A stretch of 64,000 nucleotides of DNA from Lutjanus erythropterus (lineage: Eukaryota; Chordata; Actinopteri; Lutjaniformes; Lutjanidae): positions 1,607,465-1,671,464 of the forward strand of contig CM034608.1 of assembly GCA_020091685.1 (NCBI GenBank), written 5' to 3'. Below, one piece after another: positions 19,576 to 59,190 of the stretch. Positions within the stretch are counted from its first letter, which is position 1. Each line of letters opens with the position of its first letter. Under the pieces are notes generated by a model that saw only the letters and a list, made by a program, of their open reading frames with translations, made no database searches and was not told where the DNA came from. The translations under genes were made by a program, and so were the position numbers.

Positions 19576-19642
19576 ATGCTGAACGACATTAAAATCGAGG
19601 ACCGTCTGCGGACTGATGCGAGCTCTCTGGATGATCTGATCG
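19576..19642 (+). CDS. lmx1b: lmx1b exon 1 coding part (N-terminus)
   Basis: Lmx1b is a nuclear LIM-homeodomain transcription factor; in vertebrates it patterns dorsal limb or fin, kidney podocytes, anterior eye, the isthmic organiser and serotonergic and dopaminergic neurons. The exon reads MLNDIKIEDRLRTDASSLDD then LI and one base of a Gly codon, ending at donor gtgagt (19643). ML(D/N)-IKIE is the conserved LMX1 start. ATG 19576 has A at -3, and an in-frame TAA at 19570-19572 excludes an upstream extension. The 'LIGGD' junction to exon 2 matches 'LLGSD' of mammalian LMX1B as I recall it. N3-D4, where other family members have Asp-Gly, is a small departure. LMX1 family is secure; lmx1b rests on the synteny with mvb12b. 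Confidence 0.9.
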
Positions 19643-23850: not shown

Positions 23851-24024
23851 TATATATAAGGTTTTTGGTGGTAAACTGTATAATGTGCAGTAATGAGTCT
23901 GACCTCCTGAGCCCTGTGTTCACCTCCTCCTCTCTGCTTTTACATTAATCATTCTGCGACAGCTCATGAGGCAGCCGTAAGGCCGACTGCACACTTAAAG
24001 GTTTTCTCCTCTCATGTCTTCCAG

Positions 24025-24211
24025 GAGGTGACTCCCCACAGCAGGCCGTATGTTCCGGCTGCACGCGGATCATCTCAGACCGCTTCCTGATGCGGGTCAA
24101 CGATGCGTCCTGGCACGAGGAGTGTCTGCAATGCACCGCTTGTCAGCAGCCACTCACCTCCACCTGCTACTGCAGGGACACCAAACTGTACTGCAGGACA
24201 GACTACCAGAG
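24025..24211 (+). CDS. lmx1b: lmx1b exon 2 (first LIM domain)
   Basis: Acceptor tcttccag (AG at 24023-24024); donor gtaaga at 24212. It joins in frame to exon 1 (G|GA = Gly23) and ends after two bases of a codon. The encoded segment holds a complete LIM1 double zinc finger. Predicted zinc ligands, numbered from Met1, are C32, C35, H53, C56 for the first finger and C59, C62, C79, D82 for the second, with spacing C-x2-C-x17-H-x2-C-x2-C-x2-C-x16-C-x2-D as expected. The motif [20 protein letters not shown] is nearly the vertebrate LMX1B sequence and fits LMX1A less well. LIM domains of this class bind the cofactor LDB1. The 3' end of this exon has been copied several times into the adjacent intron (24265-24540). 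Confidence 0.95.
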
Positions 24212-24264
24212 GTAAGACTGCAGAGACAAAAAAAAAATACTGCTTCCAGTACACTTCTAAACAG

Positions 24265-24540
24265 CAGGGACACCAAATTGTACTGTAGGACAGACTACCA
24301 TACCACAGGGACACCAAACTATTCCTCAGGACAGACTAATAAACCACAGGGACACTAAATTGCACTACAGGACAGACTAACTATACCTCAGGACAGGCTA
24401 CTTGACTGCAGGGATACCAAACTGTACTGCAGGACAGACTACAAGAGGTGAGACTGCAGGGACACCGAACTATACCACAGGACAGACTACCAGACTGCGG
24501 GGACACCAAACTGTACTGCAGGACAGACGATCAGAAGTAA
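24265..24540 (+). repeat. 41-bp tandem array copied from the 3' end of lmx1b exon 2
   Basis: Six units begin at 24265, 24306, 24347, 24409, 24457 and 24498 (spacings 41, 41, 62, 48, 41). Each resembles exon bases from 24173 onward: CAGGGACACCAAACTGTACT then GCAGGACAGACTACCAGA. The 62-bp spacing contains an extra half unit. The unit at 24409 also copies the exon-intron junction, giving AGAG|GTGAGACTG with a second donor-like GT at 24448. The unit at 24498 ends GATCAGAAGTAAGG, a degraded version. A 40-bp non-repeat insert (about 24222-24264) separates the exon from the array. Confidence 0.92.
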
Positions 24541-25549
24541 GGAGCGTTTCTTCCAGTACACCGTCCTGTGTGCTGGGTCAGCCGTGTGTTCAGTGTGAAG
24601 TGTGTGTGGTGCTGGTAAGTGTTGAAAGGAGCTTGTATTAAAAAAAAAATACATTTGCTTATATTTGAGCTGTAGCCTGTTGGACTAAAGGACATTATGA
24701 AGTTGTTCATTTTAACATAAGGAGCCTCTTTTGTATTTGAAGCTGTGCAATGTTCCAAAAGTGCTCCTTTTCTCTGTTGTTTCTTTTCACCTACACAGCA
24801 AAACAATTTCAGACTTCAACACTTTTTTTCATCAGTGCTCAAATAGTTGAAAGCACCAAAAACTCAAAGTATGGCAATAACATGATAAAAAAAAGTCCAT
24901 GATACAGTATTTATCATGATATTAAAAAACAGAGAATGACATTATTATTAAATAATAAATCTGATGTGTGAAGCATTTTTGTTTGCATGAAATGTTTCTG
25001 CTTTCCTTCTTTAATAAAATAACAAAAGTAGAAGCCATGACCTCAACATGTGCAAAAACTTGGCATGAATTATCTTTGGCAATTAATGTTTGAATTATGT
25101 ACAGCAGCAAAACAAAACACTGCAGCAGTCAGCAGCAGTCCTTTTATAAAATAAAATAAGAATAATGAAATAAAGTAAAATAATAACCGTGTAATATCAC
25201 AGTTAATATTGATACACTCTGTTACAGTCTTGAGACATTTTTTATTGTGATACTTGATGTATTGTTACATCCCTACTGTTGAGTTATTCAGATGGGGATT
25301 TTAGGATTAAAAACACATTGAATGAATCAACAAAGTTGGCATTAATTGATCTAATTGAATTTAATTTTACTTCATTTAACTTTATGTCGACACACATGCC
25401 AAGGTTCATCAGTATGAAAACAATAAGATTCTATACAAAAACGAGAACACAGAAATACAATCACTGCAGTCCACAGTGAGTAAAACACATCCAGGTGTTA
25501 ATACCAGTGTTTTCAAAAACATGAGCAGGACCCAGATGATGGAACAATT

Positions 25550-39870: not shown

Positions 39871-40079
39871 CGGTCTTCATTACAGAGATTATATGAGTGT
39901 GGACAGACATGGATGTAACCTGTGACTTGACTGTGACTCTGTTTTATACGACCATTGACAGCTGACTTCTCACTCTTCTTAATCGGCCACTAGGGGCCAG
40001 AAGTGATCAACATCTTCTTCAGTTTGAAATCTTGTTTCAGTTCAGAACAATGTATGTGAGGGTCATGTTAATGTTGGTG

Positions 40080-40170
40080 AAACAGCAAATCTCTGCTGGT
40101 TGCATCTGGCAGTTGTGGTGACATTGCAGTAGGTGCTTCACTCTCTGTTGCTTGGCAAGGATCTGCAGTA
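40080..40170. repeat. repeat D copy (GTTGCATCTGGCAGTTGTGG)
   Basis: It shares about 75 bp, centred on GCATCTGGCAGTTGTGGTG, with copies at 52420-52515 and 54415-54512, including the following CATTGCAGTAGGTGCTTCAC. Confidence 0.75.
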
Positions 40171-40589
40171 TAATGTTTACCTCTTTTCATTTATTTATTT
40201 ATTTTTTTGCCAGAAACCAACTGGCAGAATAATATTGTGCCAGTTTATTGTCACAGTCTTTTCCACAGTTAATTCTTTGAATCAATATTTGTTCATCTGA
40301 TAGTGCAGAAGGTAGACAAATACTGTTGTCTTGACTTATTTGTACAGTAGGTGAAAAACGTGGATTTACTAACAAGATGTTTGTGACGTGACATAATGAG
40401 GGGAAATACCAACCACAGGAACACTCTGACATCACACAGCTGGTTTTAGGATGGTGTGTACTCCCCTGTCCTTTTTGTTGTTTATGCCTGAGTGAAAGTC
40501 AATAGCCAATAAATGGTGTCTGCTCTGTGGTTTAACTTTCTAGCAGACGTACCACATTCTTACCGCTCATGGTTTTATCTGTAAAGAGT

Positions 40590-42110: not shown

Positions 42111-42212
42111 GTACTGCTGCCACAATTACTGCTGCTGCTAGACGTCTCCGCCTAACAATAAACGTAAATGTGGGTCACAATAAGCTGCTTGTAGAGAACC
42201 TGCGCTGAAATG

Positions 42213-42420
42213 TTGAGAATTAAGTCAAATTGTCTAGAATAAAGTCGAAACATTGAGAATAAAGTTGAAACATTGAGAATAAAGTTGAAACGTTGAGAAT
42301 AAAGTTGCGATAGTAAGAATTATGTGGAAATGTTGAGAATTAAGTTGAAATATCAAGAATAAAGTTGAAATATTGAGAATTAAGTCAAAAGGTTGAGGAT
42401 TAAGTTGAAATGTCGAGAAC
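42213..42420. repeat. 20-bp minisatellite (AATAAAGTTGAAACATTGAG)
   Basis: About ten units of 20 bp, the clearest at 42240-42300 where the period is exact. Later units vary at ATA/ATT and AAA/CAA positions. Confidence 0.92.
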
Positions 42421-48020: not shown

Positions 48021-48352
48021 TTCTTGAGAACTGGGACAAATCAAGTAGGATTCATACAAGGTATATGTAGGTATAATTTATGAAATGTTTTCAATTTTTT
48101 AATTTTGATTAGCATTGAGAGAACTCTGAGACACTTTAAAAAATAAAATGGCTGCTCACTACGACTGTGCTGTGAAATGAAAAAAATGTAACATTTTGTC
48201 AACTCTGTAAGACGTCTACATTTAATAGGAAAATTAATCACAAGGAGGCTGGCCTGTTACAAGGGTTAATAGCCAAGATCTTTAAAATATATTTTGCAGC
48301 ATAATCGATGAGTATAATCCAAAGCCCCTTCAAAATACGTTTGTCCCAATTC
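48021..48352. mobile_element. repeat B: MITE-like element with inverted ends
   Basis: The left end TTCTTGAGAACTGGGACAAA is the inverse of the right end TTTGTCCCAATTC (48340-48352). The interior has GATTAGCATTGAGAGAACTC, TGGCTGCTCACTACGACTGT and TTACAAGGGTTAATAGCCAA. It shares this interior with 57082-57342 and, inverted, 58534-58800. Confidence 0.75.
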
Positions 48353-49079: not shown

Positions 49080-49470
49080 AAGAGATGCACAATGATAATA
49101 AAAAGAGACCAAAGTAACTAAAAACCGATGCAAAATGACCATAGAGATGCAAAACAACTATAGAAAGAGACCAACATGGCTACAAAGAGACTTAAAATCA
49201 TCACAGAGAAGCAAAATCACAACAAAAAGAGACCAAAGTAACTAAAAACCGATGCAAAATGACCATAGAGATGCAAAACAACTACAGAAAGAGGCAATAG
49301 TAACTGAAAAGAGAAAGATATTGCAAAACAAGCACAGAGAGACACAAAGAACTGTAAAGTGATACAAAATCACCACAAAGAGATACAAAACTACAGAAAT
49401 ATGCAGAACAACAAAGATGCAAAATGACAAAAGGGCACACAAAGGCACAGAATGACCACAAAAAGTGGGC
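49080..49470. repeat. 'AAAGAGA-CAAAA-GACCA' minisatellite with a 125-bp higher-order duplication
   Basis: Irregular ~20-bp units of the AGAGATGCAAAACAACTACA type. A longer block of about 68 bp beginning GAGACCAAAGTAACTAAAAA occurs nearly identically at about 49103 and 49228, 125 bp apart, indicating a later segmental duplication inside the array. The unit is widespread in percomorph fish. Minus-strand frames of Phe/Leu/Cys-rich peptides here are artefacts. Confidence 0.85.
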
Positions 49471-52139: not shown

Positions 52140-52515
52140 AATTATGTTGTTGAAAAACTGCCTGGTTTCTTGTAATGTTCTAAATAAAGAACAAAATAAA
52201 TAAATGACAGAATGTTCTAAATAAAGAACTAAATGTTCTAAATAAATTAGTGTTTAAATAGAGAAGTTTGGCCTTGACATCCGGTTTATTGTTTCTTTAT
52301 TAAGTTTATACAGATAAATGATGAACCCAGGATGCTCGATTACAAAACCATCCCACTCTTCTATGCATCTTTAAAAAAATGGAGACTTTAACATACAACA
52401 ACACTTTATTTTAAACTTTGCAAATCTCTTTTGGTTGTATCTGGCAGTTGTGGTGGCATTGCAGTAGGTGTTTCATCATCTGTTTCCTGGCTGAAATCTG
52501 CACTCTCCTGAAGTA
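52140..52515. repeat. composite repeat G (short array) followed by repeat D
   Basis: GCCTGGTTTCTTGTAATGTT, then three or four AATGTTCTAAATAAA units, then GTTTAAATAGAGAAGTTTGG and a TTTATTGTTTCTTTATTAAG segment. Repeat D follows at 52420. The same order is seen at 53925-54512, where the array is much longer. Confidence 0.8.
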
Positions 52516-53924: not shown

Positions 53925-54512
53925 TGTCTTGTAATGTCTTAAATGAATAACAAGATGTTCTAAATAAAGAATAAAATGTTCTAAATAATAACAAAATATA
54001 AATAAATGACACACTTCTAAATAGAGAACAAAATGTTTTAAATAAAAAATTAAATATTCTAAATAAATAACAAAATGTTCTAAATAAATAACAAAATGTT
54101 CTAAATAATAACAAAATGTTCTAAATAAATGACAAAATGCCCTAAATAAAACAAAATATTCTACAAAAATGACAAAATGCCCTAAATAAAACAAAATATT
54201 CTACAAAAATGACAAAAGCTTGTAAATAATAATAAAATGTTCTAAATTAATGACAAAATGTCCTGAATAAAGAGCAATGTTTAAATAGAGAAGTCTGGAC
54301 TGAACGTCCAGTTTATTGTTTCCTCATTAAGTTTATACAGGTAGGTGTGCAGTTACAATACAGTTAGACTATTCTAGGCAAAAGTGAGTATACTATACAA
54401 AAACACTTTTTTCAAAACTTTGCAAATCTCCACTGGTTGCATCTGGCAGTTGTGGTGGCATTGCAGTAGGTGCTTCACTATTTGTTACCGGGTAGAGATC
54501 TGCACTCTCCTG
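53925..54512. repeat. composite repeat G with expanded minisatellite, followed by repeat D
   Basis: It begins GCCTGGTGTCTTGTAATGTC, continues with about 18 units of the ACAAAATGTTCTAAATAA type (53945-54290), and closes with GTTTAAATAGAGAAGTCTGG and the shared TTTATTGTTTCCTCATTAAG segment. Repeat D is at 54415-54512. A pair of units near 54130-54215 (GACAAAATGCCCTAAATAAA) is a higher-order duplication. The minus-strand 120-codon Phe/Tyr/Leu frame is an artefact. Confidence 0.88.
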
Positions 54513-55299
54513 AGTGACCTCTTCTAGTTTGTTCTAAAGACACTGCTCTTTTTGTTGTGAACAGTGTCTAAAGCACTGGAGATGTCTTTAATAAACACAT
54601 TTTCTTTGCAGCTCACTGCATCAAACCCTGATAACTGTACGAGTTTCAGCTCTAAATGACAAAAACAAGAGGTGAACAATAAAAGAGAGCGAGTATTATC
54701 TTTTCACAGGAGTGTGGCTGTTTAAACTGCAGCGGTGGTTTATGAGGCTCAGAGCCAGCTGAGAGCAGACGCTGTAACAGGAAGATGGAAACATGCTGCA
54801 GAGGGCGAGGGCAGCCTTATTGTTATGTCTGCCTCTGCTTCTCTCCCTGTTTTCATCATGAAAATCACTGCTGGTCACCAACACTGTTGGACTGACAGGC
54901 AAAGTGTTTATCTTTGTTCTTCTGGAACCTGGACACTGTGACTTTTTGGACCTTCGTGTTATGAATGTGTACGTGTGTATACACGTGTGTATGGAAGTGT
55001 TAAAGTGTTTTTGGCTGTGACGGGGACACGGTTTCTTATTTTTGGCCAGTGTTGAACACCAAATAAGAAAAATATACATGTATAATCCCCCGACGGTTCT
55101 ATGGCTTAAATAAACCATTCATTTTCTCCCCACTCTACACTGCACCACAGACTGACAGGTGAAAGATGTAAAGAGTGACTTGACGACATGCAACACAAAG
55201 TGAGTTATAAATCAGATTTTAACTACATGAGTTCATATGAGCAGTCTGCTGCTGCGGTATAACTCGAGAAACACGCCACTGCTCTAAACACTATTTGAC

Positions 55300-55377: not shown

Positions 55378-57494
55378 CATGTGTGTATAGTTCATCATGT
55401 CCATCATAAGCATATACAGCATCACATTAGTGTTACATTATGTTCATCACATGTGCATCTCAGTTGTGATACATTACAGACTGATCATACAAATTTCTCA
55501 TCCATTCAATCCAAAGTACACTGATTTCTGACTCTGCTCACTGTGAATTTGCATACATTTGAAAGGTTCTCCTTAAAAAAAAAATGAGTTCCTTTTCTGT
55601 TTTGTTTGTTGTTGTTATATGTGTACCACATGGTGTAGTAATGTGACACTTTATGGGTATTTAAGATGGCGACTCTATGTATGAGTAGCAGTCTGAGGAA
55701 GAGCCTATAACTCAGGAGCGTTTTTAGTATGTAGATTTTTTCCTCCTTTATTCAAGTATTTTTGTGACGCAGCACCCAACCCATTGGGCTCTGGGATGTG
55801 TGTGTCCTTTTCACATTGTTAAACATACTTGACTCACCCACTTCTAATTTTTGTGAGATTAATTCAAACATTAAAGTCTCAAGTTTTGAGAAATATCTCA
55901 GAACTGAGAGAATAAACTTAATTCATCATTTGGACTTCTCACATTTCTTGGTTTCTTGACTCTTGTCTGTATCGGACAGACACACATCAGCAGCAGCAGC
56001 AGCAGCACAGCTTATGAAGCTGGAGGTCATCCCCCCTGTCAGAGTCAGAGCCAGGTGTCAGTGGTGTGTCAGTGCTGTCCTGTCCTTGGAGAAGACTGTG
56101 GATGCTGGAGGAGGAAGGGCACAGACACTCAGAGACAACCTGCACTGCCAGCAGTGATGAATTCTTCTTCATACAAATGTCTGGGCTGGGGACGGGAGGA
56201 GGGACCCCCCTGGGAAATAAAGTGTGCCCCACCCCCGCCCCTCAGCTCTAAGCCTTGCCTATTTATGAGGGTCTAAGTGGTGTTAAGTCCCTTTGCCTCC
56301 AGGATGGTTATTAGTAGCAGGTCCAACTGACTGACATGTTGGATGGAAATAATGTCTCACCTTTAACCCACAGAGATTCATATGTGGCCATATTAAAAAA
56401 AATGAAAATTTATTCTCTAAGGATTTATATATTATATTTCATTTCTGATTTTTTTGTTTGCTTTATTTTATTTATTTATTTATTTTTATTAAACTTGCTC
56501 TGTGCCAAAAAAAAAACAGCCTTGTCCCAGACAACAAACAAATAAAAATGTGTTTAAAGCCTTCAAAATCTAAAACTAAGAATAACTAATGATGGTAAAA
56601 AGGTATTTAAGGTTATAGTGAAGTAGAAAAAAAGGTGCTTGTATAGTTTTACCTTGCAAGGCAGTTAGATTCACTAGATTGAGAGATCACGTGAGAATCC
56701 ACCTTGCCAGGCTTCAAGTCATACGTTCCCTCTTTGTACACACCAAAAATGGTGCAGCCAATCAGCACCCTAGGAGGGACTGCTAGCAGCTAGGGATGTG
56801 GTTTTAGATGTGACGACAGTGAGAAACGTCCATGGAAGCACTGATCTGATTGGTTGAAGTTAGCCTGTTATTCGTCCAAACACCTGCCAAATGTTTTTGG
56901 AAAGTACCTGCCCTTTTCAGTTTCTGAGGGCGACTTCCCAGCTGGTTCTGTGTAACAAGCCATCTGGTGTATCAGGTTGATTATAATCATTTTGATTTTA
57001 AAATCGATTAGATTTTTATAAAAACATGATTTAATCAGGCATAAAAATGGTTAGCAATACCAGGACTCCAGTCTCACTTTCTGGTTTAAAAATGTGTATA
57101 TTGATTAGCATTAAGAGAACTCTGAGACACTTTAAAAAATTAATGGCTGTTCACTACGACTCTGCTGTGACATGAAAAAAAATTAGATTTTTCATCTGAC
57201 AGTGCTGACATCTACATTTAATAAAACAAAATATATTCACACGAAGATTGTTACAAGGTTTAATAGCCAAGAGTTTGATCTTTTAAAATATATTTTCCAG
57301 CATAACTGAAGAGTTATACAGTTTGGTCCCAATTCTCAAGAATGAGTCTCATATCTAAAGGGACAGAGAGCTGGTCTGTTCTATTGTCACACACACAGGA
57401 CAGACAGACATGCAGTCAGTGTTTCCAGCATCACAGAAAGGCTGGGCAGCAGGGCAGACTGTGGTTTAGATCAACAGGACACCACCCTCTGAGC

Positions 57495-57496
<2 letters not shown>

Positions 57497-57538
<42 letters not shown>
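57497..57538. repeat. (CA)n microsatellite
   Basis: About 21 CA dinucleotides, in the spacer of the large inverted repeat. Confidence 0.97.
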
Positions 57539-57540
<2 letters not shown>

Positions 57541-59109
57541 TGTTTTGACCAATTTGCACATAATGTTTTATTGTAGATTCACCATTTCTGCAAGGGTTAC
57601 AGGATTATTAAAATCCAAATATTATCCTGCAGCATTTGACTGAGCAACTTGTGTTTGATTAAATTCAGGTCCATTTTTAGGTCATTCAAATGTTACAGAT
57701 TGTAATATATTACCAGAAGCTGCCACTCTTCCTTGAGGTCAGTGAGACGTGTCACTCCAGGACAATGTTTTTCTTACCTACAGTTGTCTCTTTTTACCAG
57801 TTCAAGATACGACATATTAATGTTTCTTTAAGCACAAAGCTGGAATACATAAAAACAGACAGGAGCAGTTGTTTTACAGGACATTTGGAGAAACATTGGC
57901 TCTAGTCATTGTTATTGTTCTCACTCAGAGTTGTTTTCAGGCGTGTGTGGAGCTGTGTGAGCAGGAACAAGGAAAACACTCCCCATGTTCTCACTCGACT
58001 TCTCGCATGCCTGCTCAATTAGCACCATGGCTACAGTGTACAGGTACAATGTCATATTACTGCTAATGCAGCAGGGTGACTAACTGCATGAGAGAGCCAT
58101 TCTGAAGAACAAAAAAACAGGCCTGAAGGATGATGAGTCAGCACTGAATAATTTCTTTTAAATCAAATGCACCCTCAAGAGTGCTGCTTCCTTTATAAGA
58201 CATCAGGAGCTGCTATTTACATTTCACATCTTACCTGTCACTTTGTGTTTCAAATGTGGACGTCATTTTGAAGTAAAGAAAAGCCCTGTGATGAACCGTG
58301 CGGGTGAGGTGGTGTTTTACTGGCAATGAGCTGCTCAAATTGGACACAGACTTGTCACCACCTCTCAGTCTGCAGATGGGCTTCAGTCCTCTGTGGGGGT
58401 GTCTGTCATCCTCTGACACACAAAAAGCCAATGACAGTTGACACACTCAGCAAAAAGTTCTATTCTTACTTTGCTGATAAGGTTAATGTCCCTACATACT
58501 GTCACTGACATCCTTGTACAAATATATCACTTGTTCTTGAGAATTGGAACAAAACCATAGAGGGTTTTGATTTTTACTATACAATTAATCTGGAAAATAT
58601 ATTTTAAAAGATCAAAGTCTTGGCCATTAAACCTTGTAATGGGCCAACCTCCTATTACATTTATAATTAATCTAGATGTCAACCAAAATGCTAATTTTTT
58701 TCATTTCACAGCAGAGTCATAGTGAGCAGTCATTTTCTTTTTAAAGTGTCTCATAGTTCTCTTAATGCTAATCAAAATACACATTTTTTAAACCATATTC
58801 TTATTTAGCTTTGATTTAGAAGAACTACAGAGTCGACATGTTATGGTTGAGACACATCTAATAGAAATATTATTTAATATATTTGTCTAAAATTAGAAAG
58901 TTTACCAGTGCTTGAGCTGTATTTCTCTGAAAAAGATCAATTGTAAATCAAATATGATTATAACACAGAACCTTCTGGGAAGTCGTCTTCAGAAACTGTT
59001 TGGAAAAGGGCAGGCACTGTGAACCATGAGCTAACTTCGACCAATCAGATCAGTGCTTCCATGGACGTTTCTCACTGTCGTCACACCTAAAACCACAGCC
59101 CCAGCTGAT

Positions 59110-59190
59110 GGTAGGGATGTGCGCGATTAGTCCACTACATGATTAAACGTCGCCACCCTCACTAGTCAGCACCAGAAATACTAGTTGGTT
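59110..59190. repeat. hAT-like fragment interrupting the right arm
   Basis: TAGGGATGTGCGCGATTAGT and CACCAGAAATACTAGTTGGT are typical of the end of a teleost hAT family. It lies where the A' module of the right arm stops. Confidence 0.45.

Follow-up and report, generated by a model that had tools for sequence, protein, structure and literature searches.

Tandem units in the intron of a predicted Lmx1-type gene that appear to derive from the end of its LIM1-coding exon and splice donor

The window, the whole 64,000-nucleotide stretch of DNA analysed, carries two predicted coding exons of a LIM-homeobox gene.

19576 to 19642, + strand: predicted exon 1, coding part, 67 nt from ATG to a donor GTGAG, phase 1, joined in frame to exon 2
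24025 to 24211, + strand: predicted exon 2, 187 nt, LIM1 of an Lmx1-type LIM-homeobox gene, ending in phase 2
24212 to 24216, + strand: GTAAG, predicted authentic splice donor, placed 17th among 3952 GT sites with a score of 5.93

The translation of exon 2 contains a whole LIM domain (Pfam LIM, E = 1.1e-17), and the acceptor of this exon at 24024 ranks second among the 3984 AG sites of the window. The best PDB match is an Lhx3 construct (E = 1.2e-18), and constructs of Lhx3, Isl1 and Lhx4 top the 31 matching sequences. Both this domain and the reading frame across the two exons fit an Lmx1-type gene. The name is a presumed one: the LIM1 core looks like that of LMX1B, the short N-terminus does not. 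The original prediction had specified lmx1b and called it dosage-sensitive; the Lmx1 type fits, and the name, the paralogue and the dosage sensitivity are presumed. Zebrafish has lmx1ba and lmx1bb, as given in a passage of PMC12403520.

Regular expressions for the motifs, applied to six frames of the window, turned up nothing convincing as a second LIM domain or a homeodomain, which makes an intron of more than 39 kb after exon 2 probable. Loose C..C...H..C matches occur twice on the − strand (44761 and 49408), in a frame that has stops and within a tandem array. The CpG observed/expected ratio of 0.26 we take to be that of a vertebrate rather than a lancelet. Ten of the 50 listed open reading frames were compared with Pfam and none matched, so that no transposon or neighbouring gene was named; at gathering scores Rfam recognised no family in the window, and ARAGORN (bacterial code) no tRNA gene. 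A pattern matched 6 stretches in viral and 31 in prokaryote collections, none of them confirmed, as expected for an animal gene.

Positions 24169–24541 form a series of units, mostly of 41 or 48 bp, which starts within the LIM1-coding exon and continues into the intron. TRF reports period 41 at 24265–24392 and 24389–24528, with additional rows of period 21 and 62. A repeat search of the window returned the same unit families and an 89-bp two-unit block, and autocorrelation over 24170–24545 (lags 5–129) is strongest at lag 41. An array of period 41 had been claimed, with self-comparison as the check; all three methods bear it out, the period being present both in the autocorrelation and in the TRF rows. 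The last 38 nt of the exon find 36, 34, 34, 33, 30 and 29 identities of 38 in the intron, and 25 at a shifted place, 24369. Among 500 dinucleotide shuffles of 24212–24600 the top match is 24/38, reached in two, and beyond the array no match in the window, on either strand, exceeds 22/38.

Such placement was compared with the rest of the window in a 40-mer frequency scan (step 10 bases; at least three downstream copies of at least 30/40 within 400 bases). Four places were found, 11771 (a TA microsatellite), 24161, 42231 and 53931, and 24161 alone overlaps either of the two predicted coding exons; the scan missed a TRF-reported array at 49081. Other intronic tandem arrays lie at 42206–42419 (20/60-bp units) and 49081–49314 (62/124-bp units), neither overlapping the two predicted exons. 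Two related blocks about 2 kb apart, 52174–52511 and 53933–54513, have in common a 21/40-bp AT-rich array and its flanks, with a third partial match (63%) at 40049–40176, and are probably a dispersed repeat carrying a tandem array. Nested inverted repeats at 56780–59114, with arms of 85, 107 and 64 nt that are 87–92% complementary, have the look of one large palindrome, perhaps what is left of a DNA transposon; a stretch at 57082 has a relative at 48086.

The units were compared in one ungapped register, a MAFFT alignment having been set aside because U0 spoiled it. Differences below are from the exon.

24169 to 24216, + strand: E, founder unit, 48 bp, the exon's last 43 nt plus GTAAG
24217 to 24260, + strand: U0, probable decayed unit with an A-tract, 44 bp
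24261 to 24301, + strand: U1, 41 bp, without donor; 3/40 differences; reads 12 residues
24302 to 24342, + strand: U2, 41 bp, Cys codon lost, stops; 8/40 differences
24343 to 24363, + strand: U3, 21 bp, roughly half a unit as registered here; TRF period 21
24364 to 24404, + strand: U3', shifted 41-bp unit opening an 89-bp higher-order repeat; CTAAC, branch-point-like, at 24377
24405 to 24452, + strand: U4, best copy, 48 bp; 2/40 differences; AG at 24410–24411, GTGAG at 24448; reads 12 residues
24453 to 24493, + strand: U5, 41 bp, Cys codon changed to His, without the donor stretch; 4/40 differences
24494 to 24541, + strand: U6, last unit, 48 bp; 3/40 differences; AG lost (CGG), GTAAG at 24537
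24550 to 24561, + strand: CTTCCAGTACAC, intron sequence, common to 24243–24254 within U0; probable right edge of the duplicated region

The donor is present in the 48-bp units and the 41-bp units lack seven bases at that place. Blocks 24364–24452 and 24453–24541, two units each, are identical at 71 of 89 positions. Aligned to the exon over 40 nt (24343–24382, 8/40 differences), U3 extends into the next block. U2 and U3 contain stops, and U2, U3 and U5 are without the Cys codon, as had been claimed for the units at 24306, 24347 and 24457. The unit at 24498 had been said to keep the codons; its first codon and AG are lost and its ten-residue reading differs. A copied donor does occur at 24448 as predicted, and it is not single, GTAAGG at 24537 being a second copy.

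Did the copied segment include intron? BLAST aligns 24169–24228 with 24405–24464 at 56 of 60 positions, through the donor and into the intron. Directly after the real donor, ACTGCAGAGACA (24217–24228) agrees with the start of a unit in 11 of its 12 nt, a likeness that occurs nowhere else on the + strand, so that the series seems to continue straight from the exon as a decayed, A-rich unit. The array had been placed as starting 54 bp after the donor; U0 seems to begin right behind it. The sequence CTTCCAGTACAC follows both the first and the last donor, and none of 5000 pairs of shuffled flanks shares 12 nt, although these flanks were chosen after the match had been seen. By BLAST both items are weak (14/17 and E = 0.32 for the start of U0, E = 0.12 for the shared 12-mer). 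The alignments thus suggest that exon and intron were copied together, the 56/60 match being the firmer proof and the 12-mer supporting only.

The direction of copying can be read from the unit comparison. At every one of 40 positions the base most common in the six intronic units is the exon's own, and no position is tied; U1 to U6 voted, U0 and U3' were left out, and three positions were carried by three of six votes. Among U1, U4, U5 and U6, each of the six pairwise distances equals exactly the two distances to the exon added together. An exon at the node of the star points to an exon that kept the founding sequence and copies that drifted. U2 and U3 are 9 apart (16 when summed via the exon) and U2 and U5 are 7 apart (12); U2 therefore shares changes with both, these copies are not independent, and the history is not a pure star. 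On the evidence of these distances the exon is the source of the array units, and the pattern would fit a coding exon under selection with free copies in the intron. The earlier proposal of a minisatellite seeded from a coding exon and its donor is well supported by the consensus, the star distances and the 56/60 match. Twelve changes in 160 sites, set against neutral rates for fishes, roughly suggest an age around ten million years as an order of magnitude. Evidence of coding constraint on the units is unconvincing: over the first ten codons, synonymous changes make up 7 of the 16 differences where 29% would be expected. Speaking against neutrality, though few in number, the three differences that U1 and U4 show between them in those codons are all synonymous.

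The explanation that we regard as highly probable is a boundary-spanning intragenic minisatellite, of the kind termed a mirage in amphioxus, which is probably neutral and removed with the intron. The unit anatomy would place first a tandem duplication of a segment comprising the exon's last 43 nt, the donor GTAAG and probably some of the following intron. Units of 48 bp with a donor and of 41 bp without one may then have multiplied and the 89-bp two-unit block doubled, the exon copy remaining fixed and the intronic copies drifting. The strong acceptor at 24024 and the first donor, at 24212, are the sites that most likely define exon 2. If so, the whole array would leave with the intron with little or no effect on the protein, and both neutrality and correct splicing are probable.

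Mirages have been described in amphioxus Adh3, the globins BflGb6 and BflGb9, and TnC (PMC3087553, PMC3902484), with similar but imperfect repeats in lancelet PGBD5 (PMC3902484). In the parts of PMC3087553 that describe them, the units measure 10–160 bp, many carry AG/GT signals and their number differs among haplotypes; the lancelet data in that paper and PMC3902484 suggest that regular splicing is undisturbed. The array here is alike in having minisatellite-like tandem units over an exon–intron boundary, with exon and intron sequence in the units (56/60 through the donor) and splice signals kept in some (GTGAG at 24448, GTAAG at 24537), and BflGb9, as described in those passages, likewise copies a 3′ exon boundary. 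Units here are 80–95% like the exon over 40 nt, whereas the 81–100% given in these sources for BflGb6 compares units with one another. The mirages belong to lancelet genes, whereas the gene here looks vertebrate (CpG ratio, intron above 39 kb), and normal splicing and length instability are reported for them, whereas this array is known from one sequence alone. By the features tested the array belongs with the mirages. It had been called unusual: the kind is already described in the amphioxus papers, as far as their relevant passages go, although a vertebrate-looking gene does extend the pattern.

Two further systems are comparable. In human segmental duplications, genes carry internal tandem repeats where exon meets intron, and some of these form introns (PMC2812944, in the passages concerned); there, too, a minisatellite has expanded at the boundary, with a unit of about 30 bp on average, but in recent primate paralogues and with some new introns, whereas here the copies lie within an existing intron. 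A potato RdRp gene is described in part of PMC4974935 as having gained an intron from a boundary-crossing duplication. The duplicated segment with splice signals beside an exon is alike. In contrast to that account, here the coding sequence holds no new intron within former exon sequence, LIM1 being unbroken in exon 2, and the copies are inside the intron after it. Intron gain in ray-finned fish is discussed in PMC3151243, with no such array in its passages on the subject. No publication on this array or on a mirage in an Lmx1 gene appeared among the matches listed, judged by title and start of abstract in a partial, subscription-poor collection.

The copied splice signals could matter in two ways. 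Donors were scored with a matrix of approximate donor frequencies and ranked among the 3952 GT sites of the window. The copy at 24448 ranks 13, slightly above the real donor, and that at 24537 ranks 106. A strong donor-like CTG/GTAAGTG at 24615–24620 (score 6.6), some 74 bp beyond the array and unrelated to the copies, pairs with an AG at 24581 to bound an open 33-nt stretch. An acceptor-like site also occurs inside exon 2 at 24175–24176 (pyrimidine-rich, then CTACTGCAG/GG; rank 29 of 3984), just where the repeat unit begins. The RNA fold of the array is unremarkable (z = −1.08), 12 of 100 shuffles doing equally well.

The copies might act as decoys, competing for U1 snRNA or extending exon 2, which would yield a message with truncated LIM1 and lower the dosage. 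The real donor, the two copies and the 24615 site all lie within 404 nt, and exon 2 extended to 24448, 24537 or 24615 would in each case stop at the TAA at 24213–24215. Against this, the first donor gives an ordinary exon of 187 nt and the downstream donors give exons of at least 423 nt; moreover, amphioxus mirages with copied signals are suggested to splice normally from RT-PCR and Adh3 data, in the section of PMC3087553 that treats them. We give this reading a slim chance.

Slimmer is the chance that U4 serves as a small alternative exon of 36 or 51 nt, which would put 12 or 17 more residues between LIM1 and LIM2. The original prediction of a mini-exon in the unit at 24409–24447 stands as to an open, in-frame stretch; its limits would be those given next.

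24412 to 24447, + strand: hypothetical mini-exon, 36 nt, symmetric phase 2-2, open and in frame after exon 2

A 51-nt alternative runs from 24397, behind the AG at 24396, and is also open in phase 2; both lengths are multiples of three. The strong donor of U4 and the CTAAC about 31 nt before 24411 are in keeping with exon use, but other AGs lie between that CTAAC and 24411, and the acceptors are weak (24411 ranks only 551 of 3984; 24396 scores 0.3). A UGC adjoins the AG of U4, as in Srrm4-type microexons, but no UC repeat lies upstream; of 95 zebrafish cases described in part of PMC12626420, where UGC and a UC repeat stand directly upstream, 44 typically have only one of the two. Srrm4-type microexons are very short, 3–27 nt in the passage of PMC7935315 concerned, and the candidate is longer at 36 or 51 nt. 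In a scan of 24230–63899 for AG–GT pairs (donor at least 5.5, acceptor at least −1, 18–60 nt between) 12 pairs pass; the two of U4 rank 9th and 10th, and six of the 12 combine an open frame with symmetric phases, which makes pairs of this sort nothing rare. U4 owes its coding appearance to the exon, and that appearance is by itself no sign of use. A still slimmer chance is that some neurons splice U4 into the message as an in-frame mini-exon whose 12 or 17 residues repeat the last zinc-binding stretch of LIM1.

It is barely probable that the array is instead a pre-existing repeat overlapped or captured by the exon, or that it rewrote the exon by conversion. The two halves of the exon tail (TACTGCAGGG... 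and TACTGCAGGA...) are alike and some of its residues differ from those of LMX1B, but such internal likeness is not unusual, the observed value being reached by 566 of 5000 synonymous recodings. Against these readings, the star has the exon at its centre, the LIM domain encoded there is intact, and no further copy lies within the window. Conversion of the exon by the array found no support in the unit alignment and the star distances. Tandem repeats are generally prone to assembly artefacts, but the seven aligned units, 2–10 of 40 positions apart pairwise and differing in length, are unlike collapsed or stuttered reads, which makes this the least credible explanation of all.

An array read as a boundary-spanning minisatellite offers a simple test: its copied donors are either ignored or used. 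Arrays seeded at a splice boundary place ready-made donors and in-frame coding pieces in an intron and are proposed raw material for new exons and introns. If exonisation of U4 were true, it would give a developmental transcription factor a longer linker between LIM1 and LIM2, and the copied end of one exon would be on its way to becoming a new exon beside it. The interest of the case lies in a vertebrate-looking developmental gene combined with a clean polarity from the exon at the star centre, and its occurrence in such a LIM-homeobox gene widens a pattern reported, in the passages cited above, mainly from lancelets.
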